Shown: in pieces, positions 4,311-16,300 of the stretch
How the letters are laid out: each line of letters starts with the position of its first letter
How positions within the stretch are numbered: the first letter of the stretch is position 1
DNA from: Hydra vulgaris
Lineage: Eukaryota > Cnidaria > Hydrozoa > Anthoathecata > Hydridae
Length of the DNA stretch: 64,000 bases
Direction of reading: 5' to 3'
NCBI RefSeq assembly: GCF_038396675.1
Contig: NC_088928.1
Location: forward strand, 60,054,501-60,118,500
Position numbers and translations under genes: made by a program
The notes under the pieces: model-generated
Seen by the model: the letters and a program-made list of their open reading frames with translations, nothing else
Told to the model about the DNA's origin: nothing
The model's database searches: none

Positions 4311-7300
4311 TCACCAGATGTATGGAAAAATTCTGTATTTAACACGTTCACAGTACTGTTTCCATGCCAACCCGTGTTTTACCAAGCATTTTTTTTCTTC
4401 CTTTATTGCAGAGTAAATGAAGATAAAGATCAAACTGGTAGGCCACACCCAAGGTAGAAAATGCTTGAAACCTAAATATAATATTAAAAACATTCGTTTA
4501 TTAAGATATTTTTTTTGTCAAGAACTGATAAGAAAGATTAAAAAACGAACCACACGGGGCTGAGAAAGCAATACAAACAAGAAAATCTCCAAAGTAATTT
4601 GGATGACGCAAACAATCCCACCATCCATCAGCGAGCAAATCTTTTCCAGTTCCTGTAGATATGTAATCAAGTCCTTAAAAAAATTTTTGAACGTTTAAAA
4701 AAAAGTTTTGAAGATATATTTTAAGTAAACCATTATAATATTGCAAAAATACATACTTAAATACATACATACATATAAATGTATACAAATTATCCCTTTG
4801 CCTGTATATAATCTCTTTACAAATTTAAAAAACATCCCTTTATAATTTTAGTGCTTAACATGGGATGGGATGCCATCCCTAGAGTGTCCCACTCCCGCAA
4901 AATTTTAGAACTATCAGGCCAATTTTTAAATTGAGGTTTAGACTAAGAAAAAAATGATATGTACCGAGTACTTTTTTTAAATACAAAAATTTTAGGGTCC
5001 CATATAGAAAAAGTTGAAAAAATCCTTTTTTACCGTCTTTTTTAGGTATTTTTGCTTAAAATGTTAACAAATATATTCTGTAACGACTTCAACTTTTTAC
5101 ACAGTATTATTTACTATCTTCTTTATATTGTATAACAAATTCGACTTAACAAAAATTAATTTTAATTAAATATCAAATTTGTCAAGTGGTTTTGTAATTT
5201 GGCAACGTCAGTAATGTAACTTGTGCCAGATTTCACTAGACAGTATCACTAACTGTTATTTACTGTAAAGGCTTAAATTTGGAACAATATAAAAATGTAT
5301 TCATAAAAAACTTTATATAATAGAAACATATGTGCCTATATAAAAAAGTTTGATTATCTTATTTCAACCAATTAATTATTCTTTAACGATGGTTGCGTCT
5401 AATCTGGCCATTTAGTTTAAGGGATATTTCTTTTCGTGTTGTTTCTTTAGTGTTTTTCTGTGGTCACCATAAAAATGGATTTACATTCTTGTAAACTACT
5501 GAAACCTAGTGAACCTCTAATAAAAGAGAAAAACTGGTTGGTGGAAAAGCAAGATCCACACGAAATCATCATCAAGATTACTTTATTGGATTTGGACTAG
5601 AGAAAAGTTTGTGTCAGTGTAAAACTTCCCCTTAAAACTGCTTTGCTCATAAGAAAAGAAGTGCCCTGAGAAGAAACAAGACCAGATTTTGGAATCAATG
5701 AATCAACTCTGTGACATATCAGCCATACACCTATTAATTATTATGTGTGACATACACATATTAAACATTATGTGTATCTCAACATGGAAGTGACATACAC
5801 ATATTAAATACCTGTGATATTAAACTACACATATTAAACACCTGTGATATTACTTGTGATATCACTGTTTACTTGTTGGATATTACTTGTGTTTACTTGT
5901 TGAATATTATTTGTGTTGGATATATAAATTGTTGGATATTACTTGTGTTTACTTGTTGGATATTACTTGTGACATCACTGATTACCTGTGATATTAATTG
6001 TGATTTACCTGTGATATTAAACTACACATATTAAACACCTGTGACATACACATCAAATATTATGTGTATCTCATGGACATGGAAGAAGGACTGGGAATTT
6101 TTACTGAACCAAGAGAAGTATTCACTGATAATTTTATGCACTATTTCAACTACGTTGAAGTATTGCATTTAAGGTAATTGCTTACATTTTACATTAGAAT
6201 AGTATTGTTTATCTCCAATTAGGTTGGTTTGATGATCAGTTGCAACATAAATCTTGCACAACGAGAGAAGAACAAGTCTGATCACAATGAACGCCTTGAA
6301 AACAGAGCCAACGCCCACAGGACAGCTAAAAGTAGAAAACAGCTCTAAGTGATAAAGAAATATAAGAAATCCTCGAGAAAAGTGTGGATGTAAGTAGCTC
6401 AGAAGTCAAATTTATCACTCTCTTCCAGCCAAAATGGAAAACCAGATTGTCGAATGTTGCTATTCAAATTGATCTTACAACGTTAAATCATTAACTGATG
6501 TCTCTGAACAATTAGGCCTCAGCGTAAGAGGCCTAATTGTTCGGTATCAGCGTAAGAGGCCTAATTGTTTGGTAAAAGTATCGTTTTCCAATTTCGCGAT
6601 CATCATTTCACCATAACCGTAGAGTAGAACAAGAAAAACAAGGTGCCCAAAATAAAAAGCATGAATTACATTGGAGGTGACAGTTTATTATCTTAGAGGT
6701 GACTAGTCAACTATTAAGATGTTTAACTTCAAAAAACCTGAGCGCATTATTGTGCAAGATTAATGCACAATGAGCTGTACATCTTGAAACTTGTTTTAAT
6801 TGGCCATAGTTTTAAAACCTGAGAAATTTATAGTTAATATTAAAATTTCATAGTAATATTGAATATAGTTAAAAAATGTCCCCCACATTGCCACCCACAA
6901 TTAAGTTATGCCATAAAAATATTGTTGTCTTTATGACTATTATGAAAGTATTTGATTTTTAAATTCGCTATAAAGCATAAAACACACCTAAGTAAAAACT
7001 ATTTTATGTGCTTGTGTAATATGTTGGTCTGAACTGAAAAATTACACAAATACAGAAAATAGTTAATACAAATGCGTTTTATGTTTTACTCATTTCTTTT
7101 GTCTTTACTCATTTCAATGTCTTTTTTAATTAATTTTATATTTATACAGTAAATTTTTAAAGAAAAGTATTTTTATCAAAATAATATTAAAACATAGAAC
7201 ATTATTAACATATATTATCCATGCATTTTAGATTTTTCTAATATGTCAAATAAATATAGCAAAACTGTTGTTGACAAATATTCAAGAGTATGGACAAAAA

Positions 7301-13300: not shown

Positions 13301-16300
13301 TGTTACCCAGCTAATCAAGCCAGCCTTTAACATAAAGGCCCTTAGATCAATTTGGCCTAAAAATAATGGCGAAACAACTTTACCACACATAAAATCCTTG
13401 ATAATACCACCTAAAGAAAAAAAAGATACATAAAACTAAAGTAATAAATACATTTAAAAAATACTTTATATAAAACTTGATTTAGAAAGTAGCATTTGTA
13501 GTATTTATAAATATTATACATTAGATATCATAGATTCAATTAGATGACATAGATTCAATGCCATGGTGAACCTATAAAGATCCCATGCCAATTACAGCTT
13601 CTTCAAGCCATGTACATAATTTACTAAGTTCAATCTTAAAGATTTTTTACAGTTTTTTCAAAAATGATTTCTTCTGAAAATTTATGCCATCATTTTGTAA
13701 ACTGTTTATCATAAAATTTTCCTTTATTTATTGCTTTTTATAAGTTCTATATAAAAATGTGCTTGACCTCTGTTAGTACCTGGACCATATGCTGATATGG
13801 ATATTTGCTAATTTTGATACCAAGATTTATCTAACATTATATCTATTGCATCCAATACTGAGATCATTTTTCAATACCGGTAATACCGGTATTGAGTTAT
13901 TTTCTCTTAAACATGTTTTCTACATTAGAGGGGGACGTAATGCTATATTTTAAATCAGTGCTGGGCATTATTTTTAAAAATCACGCACGAAAACTTGTAT
14001 ATGTTTTGTCTGATACTTTCATAAGAATAAAATTAGCATTCTCCAATTTACTCTTATTTAATTCTAATCTATATAAATGTTTTGTTTACAAAAAATGGTA
14101 TTCATTAGAATAAATTAAGTTTGAAGCGGAATCATGCACGGAACAGAAAAACGCAAATTTTAATTACTAGGCAAATAAATTTTAATTCCTCGTAAATTAT
14201 AAGTTCTAGCAGTATACTTTTTTTTAATTATTAGTAGAAATTTCCAGAAAGTTACAGGATTGCACTACTATCAAATTATTAAAGTTACAGTAATCGTTTA
14301 AATTCAGTTCAAGGGCGGTCACACATGGAAGTCACGCACGGAAGTTAAAAATTTGTCAATTTCATGTAGTTATTTTAATGAAAATAAATTGCTTGTGAGT
14401 ATTTCAATTGAAATATTCTCTACAACTCATACTTATTATATTTTAGATAAGAAATAACATCAAATATTTCTGGCTCAAATATAAAACTTTTGAGCAAGCA
14501 TGATTTTATATTCTCATTACAATCTGAACGAGCGTTGTTTATCGTGGCTAGAAGTTTTGAATTTTCCATTTTGTGTTTTTCATGGAGAAAGCAATAGTGC
14601 ACAAGCCCAATACATTTATTTTAAAATGTAGATACTTAAAAAAGCCCAATAATATTGGTATTCCAGTATTGGTAATACCGGTATTGGATACACTAATTTT
14701 ATCCAACTTATGAAAAATTTTATAATAACCGATAATAGAAAAATTAGCAGTATTTTTATTGGTTGATTTTAAAATTAACACACATTTCTGCACCATAGTA
14801 ACAGTTTAAAAATTTTTTTTAAAAATGTTTGCAAAAGTTTCTTAAGTTTTTATATTATTTATATATCTATTGTATTTTTTCTAGATGGATTTTTATTTCA
14901 ATAAAAATTTAGGATATATTATCTTAATCATTTTTTTTACTTTTAATACCTGGATTAATTGTTGTTTAACAACTTGTTTCTCCATGTAGCGGCCTTGTTT
15001 GTAAAAGTTTATGTTTCAGAGTTATAGTTGGGAGAGGGTTGTTACCACAATTGAAGTAGCCTCCTTAACAGGCATTCGGGATCTTGGGGAGGTGAATTAA
15101 CATTGGGAAAAAAATATATGTAAGTAAATGTTGCTTTTTAATTTAGTAGTTCACAGTTTCCCGTTACTAATTTATAACTGCTCTGCTCTTTAAGAACATT
15201 GAGCACTCTTTTGTTGAATACACTAACAATGAATCGTGCCCAAATTAAAAAAAAAATGTCATTGAATTAAGCCCTTTGTTTAAAAAAAATGTCATCCCAA
15301 AATTAACATATGGTACAATTATATATCTAACATGACTGTTTTATTAATCTTACCCAACAACACTTTCAAAATTTAAGAGTTTTCCCACCCTTTCTTGAGC
15401 TTCCAACACCTAAGAAAATCTAACACACCTTATTAGAAGAACCAGCCCAATCATGAAATATGAAAATATTCCAATACTGTTGTATTTTACTGAATCGGGA
15501 GTTAGGAAATAGTGTGCACAATAAAGAGAGGCAACCTTAGCAGATGTTAATGTAATGAGATGAGAGGTTAATACTAAAAGATAATCCAAAATGATGTAAA
15601 CTAGAAGACACAGTAAGAGTGATGCCGTTCATCATGATAATTTTTAGCAGTAAATAACTGGGTTTAGTTTGGGTTAAATTCACAAGCCACTGCAAGTCCC
15701 AAGCTGTCACAAAAAGTACTTGTTAAATAGTTTAGCGAGTATCAAAGAGGATTCTGGAGAACACTTTAGTATCAACAGAGTCAGTCTGTAATAGAGCCAA
15801 GCCATTCAGTGTGATAAGCATTAAAGTAACCAATAATAACAATATTGGCTGATGTAAATAATGAAAACTATGTAAATAAAATATAAGATAAAATAATCAC
15901 CAATTATAGCAAGATTATATACAAGTTAAGTTTGACTTTTGCAAAATCTTTTAATTGATAGATGCTCTAACATGAGTTATTCTTAAACTACTTAATGCAA
16001 ATATTACAATATATATTAATATTATTACCAATATATATTGCATTGTAATATTCATATGCAATATGAATATTACAATACAATATATATATACATACATATA
16101 TATATATATATATATATATATATATATATATATATATATATATATATATATATATATATATATATATATATATATATATATATATATAATTATATATACC
16201 ATTGTATACAATGCACATTTAACTTTTTTCAGTTTTTACCATAATAAAACAAAAGTTTTTATATAAATTTCATAACTTTATGCTCTTTGAATTCTGTAAA

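Follow-up and report, generated by a model that had tools for sequence, protein, structure and literature searches.

An LBR of Hydra vulgaris that keeps the sterol reductase fold and has probably lost reductase chemistry

It has been asked why the lamin B receptor (LBR) combines chromatin tethering and a sterol enzyme in one protein, a question described as open (PMC5617974). An LBR gene lies in the 64,000 nucleotides of Hydra vulgaris DNA analysed here (hereafter the window; contig NC_088928.1, forward-strand positions 60,054,501 to 60,118,500 of assembly GCF_038396675.1), and it raises the question of whether the reductase domain of its product is still an enzyme. A preliminary description of the locus had considered a scaffold-only LBR plausible. 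This is also our best reading, to which we give a probability of roughly 0.78: the residue changes described below point to a reductase-dead LBR kept as a chromatin/lamina tether, akin to Drosophila LBR. However, an intact Tyr/Asp pair and intact NADPH-site residues, which the preliminary description had overlooked, have to be set against it.

The gene is on the minus strand and runs through ten exons from an ATG at 19338 to a TGA at 4311–4313. All nine introns have GT-AG ends, and the LBR reading frame is open across all 657 codons. Exon 1 (19153–19338) encodes the start codon and a Tudor domain (aa 1–62), identified by the Pfam family LBR_tudor (PF09465; residues 1–42, E 9.7e-9, 35.3 bits against a cut-off of 22) and by two LBR Tudor chains of known structure, 2l8d (9.5e-6) and 2dig (3.2e-5). 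A splice-acceptor-like AG stands two bases before the start codon (window 19339–19342), as expected with a joined 5' untranslated exon or a trans-spliced leader. Exon 2 (17534–18322, aa 63–325) encodes the Arg/Ser-rich (RS) nucleoplasmic region, a stretch between the Tudor domain and the first membrane segment in which 27 residues were read directly, followed by the first membrane segments as judged from hydropathy. Exon 3 (16886–16943, aa 326–345), which has GT-AG ends, and exon 4 (16460–16642, aa 345–406), which encodes membrane segments, were matched together with the 3' part of exon 2 in the reductase-domain genome search described below. From residue 293 to the C-terminus the product matches the Pfam family ERG4_ERG24 (PF01222; E 2.6e-69, profile positions 58–432 of 432), with a weaker Pfam match to DUF1295 (E 1.1e-4). 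Four solved structures were matched at E ≤ 0.1, namely the two Tudor chains, the delta-14 sterol reductase MaSR1 of Methylotuvimicrobium alcaliphilum (PDB 4quv; 4e-39) and a further delta-14 sterol reductase, 9l5r (2.5e-32). The product of the locus is thus LBR, with an N-terminal Tudor domain, an RS region and a C-terminal multi-pass ERG4/ERG24 domain in one spliced frame. The extent given in the preliminary description, 4311–13410, covers exons 5–10 but misses the Tudor and RS exons, since the gene spans 19338 to 4311.

It is in the later exons that the reductase domain departs from its relatives. We take the signature motifs of C14 reductases to be YDFxxGRxLNPR and HRxxRDxxxC; MaSR1 carries them as YDYFMGTALNPR and HREKRDDAMC, and neither motif is present in Hydra LBR. 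Exon 5 (13307–13410, aa 406–440) holds a degraded ERG4/ERG24 signature 1 at residues 410–421 and exon 10 (4311–4471, including the stop at 4311–4313) an altered C-terminal signature at 624–633, both exactly as the preliminary description had quoted them when located in the 657-aa model. In exon 10 the residues equivalent to MaSR1 R395, R398, D399 and Y407 are S625, K628, E629 and H637 (657-aa model). In exon 7 (10465–10633) those equivalent to D257, G270 and W274 are T488, L501 and I505; the claim that this block had been lost holds, relative to MaSR1, for D257, F263, G270, D271 and W274, but not for the glycine G264, which is kept. Exon 9 (4551–4673) retains GWW (580–582) and RHPNYFGD (586–593, containing RHPNY), including N589 (human N547) and D593 (MaSR1 D363), and has D583 in place of G353. 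YRIFPYI (650–656) is likewise retained, so that all three motifs reported as intact are present. Exon 6 (12921–13040, aa 441–480) carries the retained Y472, the equivalent of Y241, which is proposed to be catalytic in MaSR1, and exon 8 (10019–10099) retains QK..FRR. Two acceptors 15 bases apart are available to exon 8, the longer form (10019–10114) giving a protein of 662 aa and the shorter one of 657 aa; the longer form was dropped and the shorter preferred because the former adds five residues found in no relative, and the shorter exon fits the family length.

The changes are unevenly distributed. When conserved columns were tallied by region, using the 662-aa model and region limits set after the data had been inspected, Hydra LBR was found to keep 5 of 13 in the D..GD..W block (MaSR1 253–286) and 2 of 7 in the HR..RD helix (391–407), alongside 5 of 8 in signature 1 (180–209), 10 of 14 in the QK..R..GWW..RHxNY stretch (318–363) and 5 of 5 in the final stretch (408–427). 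In MaSR1 numbering the substitutions are D257T, G270L, W274I, G353D, R395S, R398K, D399E and Y407H. D257, W274 and G353 are invariant in 46/46 relatives, a set in which position 363 is D-type in some enzymes and E-type in others, and R395 and Y407 are invariant in the 45/45 that have a letter there. An active reductase would be expected to carry the cofactor-site arginine (MaSR1 R395, human R583) and the invariant channel aspartate (D257), and both are replaced in Hydra LBR, by S625 and T488, respectively.

Published work suggests what such replacements may do. Human LBR, which binds NADPH with a KD of 24.2 uM, is necessary for the tested cells to make cholesterol; the R583Q variant has lower NADPH affinity and fails to restore this synthesis to LBR-null cells, although the protein is very stable (PMC4951196). 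A stable but non-catalytic protein of this kind is what a scaffold needs. The equivalent of D257 is described as fully conserved, non-catalytic and presumably essential, with its role unknown (PMC12489058). The changes in Hydra LBR are centred on the transmembrane segment 7 block next to the sterol channel (D257T, G270L, W274I) and on the C-terminal cofactor helix (R395S, R398K, D399E, Y407H), and we consider it very likely that NADPH is bound poorly or sterol misplaced, leaving the protein with no C14-reductase activity. The alternative is that Hydra LBR remains a reductase with a remodelled channel, acting on a sterol that may come from the diet and possibly on a different double bond. Its reductase domain is indeed full length and open throughout, and K319, R323 and N359 are retained along with the proposed catalytic Tyr/Asp; yet the losses at D257, W274, G353, R395 and Y407 depart from D-type and E-type relatives alike, and in the human protein R583Q by itself impairs both NADPH binding and rescue (PMC4951196), which makes this alternative quite unlikely.

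We next considered whether the loss exceeds what overall divergence would give. The reference set comprised 29 sequences (MaSR1, chain 9l5r and 27 bacterial relatives out of 45 that were retrieved) and yielded 66 columns conserved at 90% or more. The human LBR sequence used was checked against PMC4951196 in its length and at three residues, with which it agrees; 'fungal-type' is our own label for 9l5r, the record of which reads delta-14 sterol reductase, and the aligned copy of which is without the full C-terminal end. Hydra LBR retains 39/66 of these columns in the 657-aa model (38/66 in the 662-aa model), whereas human LBR retains 57/66, a comparison that is independent of any human sequence in the reference set; alignment with human LBR, MaSR1, 9l5r and bacterial relatives thus bore out the residue loss. 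MaSR1 scores 66/66 and the 27 bacterial relatives 59 to 66 of 66, all of these having helped to define the columns; with each left out in turn, the bacterial sequences keep 87–100% of columns, against 38/66 for Hydra LBR (662-aa model). When 17 of the 18 relatives initially set aside were added, the number of conserved columns was 81, of which human LBR keeps 66 and Hydra LBR 44; a subset of 15 sequences that all carry N359 and D363 gave 101, with 92 and 60 kept, respectively. Across 208 variable columns, Hydra and MaSR1 are equally close to the human sequence (60/203 and 61/206 identical), while of the 57 conserved columns with the consensus residue in human LBR, 37 agree in Hydra and all 57 in MaSR1 (Fisher p = 2.5e-7, a test that favours MaSR1 because it helped to define the columns). 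As judged from these alignments, the loss in Hydra LBR is concentrated at conserved sites and exceeds overall divergence.

An apparent loss of this kind could also be an artefact of wrong exons, of a paralogue or of a decaying pseudogene. The gene model was built from genomic DNA alone and exon 8 has two possible acceptors, which leaves some room for this explanation; against it stand the GT-AG exon ends, the in-frame joins and the lack of any stop in 657 codons, to which no chance value is attached here because openness was itself a basis for selecting the exons. Intact versions of the signature exons, which the preliminary description had singled out as something to look for, were absent from the window DNA when 2733 six-frame pieces were searched with the family profile and with six motif patterns. 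The best profile matches were the LBR exons, all others having E ≥ 1.4, and the patterns hit four sites in all, GWW three times and RHPNY once, of which the RHPNY and one GWW are those of exon 9. In the genome, the PF01222 model at E up to 10 found only two LBR exons (two candidates passed the first stage, so that a higher E added none), and the Hydra reductase domain used as query at E ≤ 0.001 gave nine matches from eleven candidates, all of them exons 2–10 of LBR. No second family member was therefore found with the Pfam-model and reductase-domain queries, although a very divergent paralogue could escape because each exon is searched separately and no more than two LBR exons were recovered with the Pfam model. 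Since the genome searches match LBR alone and no intact alternative exon was found within the window, we regard an artefact as highly improbable. Among viral relatives, 15 stretches were examined and none was confirmed.

If the domain is reductase-dead, its substrate may be missing as well. Squalene epoxidase gave no match in the Hydra genome, in which the positive control, HMG-CoA reductase, gave five. One genome match to the SQS_PSY family was found at E ≤ 0.001, a single-exon open frame of 303 aa (stretch L053, 1381–2292; G000:C15, around 26304702–26305439). Its scores with the bacterial models for squalene synthase and presqualene synthase fall far short of their cut-offs, and against solved structures at E ≤ 0.1 it matched no squalene synthase and only phytoene synthase, weakly; we take it to be of the mitochondrial NDUFAF6 type. 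Where CYP51 is absent, no delta-14 sterol substrate is expected. Four cnidarians including H. vulgaris are reported to have no CYP51 (PMC8110760), a statement from the literature only, no CYP51 search having been run here, and a coral and an anemone are reported to have neither CYP51 nor squalene synthase (PMC7527140). The sterol pathway upstream of C14 reduction thus looks to be missing in Hydra, and the statement in the preliminary description that cnidarians are thought not to make sterols de novo agrees for Hydra with the squalene epoxidase and CYP51 results, with a qualification for anthozoans given below. Loss of the upstream pathway would leave Hydra LBR without a delta-14 sterol substrate, and it is likely that the domain has been kept as a membrane anchor for the Tudor/RS head. 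As an anchor it would keep this head in place for tethering chromatin and lamin at the inner nuclear membrane. The genome contains one chromoshadow exon as a candidate partner, and a Hydra vulgaris lamin, a second candidate partner, has been listed (PMC4010787).

A protein of this sort has a precedent. Drosophila melanogaster LBR (CG17952), like that of Hydra, combines a charged N-terminal head with an eight-segment reductase-like domain in an organism from which CYP51 is probably missing (PMC2478713). It binds lamin and, as the preliminary description had noted, is reported to lack C14-reductase activity when assayed in yeast with a mutated erg24 (PMC2478713, citing earlier work). It differs in belonging to a distant lineage, and the comparison covers domain layout, the absence of CYP51 and an inactivity that is reported for Drosophila and predicted for Hydra; because the lineages are so far apart, inactivity in the two may be independent. 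Human LBR has Tudor, RS and ERG4/ERG24 regions in the same order as Hydra LBR and shares 138/407 aligned membrane-domain residues with it, but the human sequence used keeps D446, G459, W463, G541, R583, R586, D587 and Y595. MaSR1 belongs to the same family (98/345 aligned residues identical to Hydra) and has in common with Hydra LBR several residues of the cofactor site as well as Y241 and D363, the proposed catalytic pair; it differs in its intact channel block and cofactor helix, and no Tudor/RS head is seen in the matched chain of 427 residues.

Several observations weigh against a reductase-dead scaffold. R398K and D399E are conservative changes, and the Tyr and Asp proposed as catalytic in a 2025 ERG24 modelling study (MaSR1 Y241 and D363; PMC12489058) are retained as Y472 and D593, so that the claim that most catalytic-signature residues had been lost is right for the motifs but not for this pair. 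Of the 20 side chains that are mobile around the cofactor in the same model, mapped to MaSR1 partly by a constant offset, 10 are identical to those of MaSR1 (W209, Y241, F312, K319, R323, H357, N359, Y360, D363 and K406). The yardsticks are mostly bacterial proteins of presumed activity, and the single animal yardstick is the human sequence described above. The fungal-type chain 9l5r itself keeps 44/55 conserved columns where a residue is present, Hydra LBR keeping 30 of the same 55, and therefore ordinary divergence accounts for part of the Hydra change. Data on de novo sterol synthesis vary within anthozoans (PMC8110760). Finally, nuclear architecture in Drosophila was not obviously altered when LBR was knocked down (PMC2478713), and the Drosophila precedent therefore falls short of proving a needed scaffold.

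We read the active site of Hydra LBR as half present, with remnants of the fold persisting and function apparently lost from the cofactor helix and sterol channel. Ligand binding by the domain may persist, since the proposed Tyr/Asp pair is retained together with several residues of the NADPH site. A non-catalytic domain that still binds sterol or NADPH would allow LBR to sense lipid or redox state at the nuclear envelope, and the retention of the C14-type residues F312, K319, N359 and D363 is in line with this; however, these may be structural, binding is itself proposed from sequence, and neither the aspartate nor the tryptophan of the channel is kept, which leaves a sensor unlikely. A more specific form, in which a non-reducing sterol or NADPH sensor would couple dietary sterol status to chromatin tethering, with the pair and half of the NADPH site under selection, is very unlikely. 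We accordingly retain the tether without reductase activity as the best reading.

The window also contains sequences that resemble mobile elements. A mobile-element-like unit occurs in two copies that are 96–98% identical and in opposite orientation, at 7022–9350 (+), inside LBR intron 8, and at 36556–38841 (-); its open reading frames of 407, 328 and 213 aa have no Pfam match. When ten open reading frames of the window other than LBR were compared with Pfam, one clear family was found, the C-terminal dimerisation region of a hAT transposase at 56063–56452 (-; 2.1e-10). Remnants of a LINE-type reverse transcriptase at 421–640 (+) and of a LINE-type endonuclease at 33929–34294 (-), the latter with no Pfam match, were judged by eye.

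Reductase-dead LBR is already known as a kind, and no cnidarian case was seen among the open-access papers listed in our literature searches. A full-length LBR with a degraded pocket, in an animal distant from insects and from which upstream sterol synthesis has apparently gone, suggests that the fold has value even where the chemistry is lost. Hydra LBR would then be a natural separation-of-function protein: should it take the place of LBR at the nuclear envelope of LBR-null cells but leave their cholesterol synthesis unrestored, the two roles would be separable.

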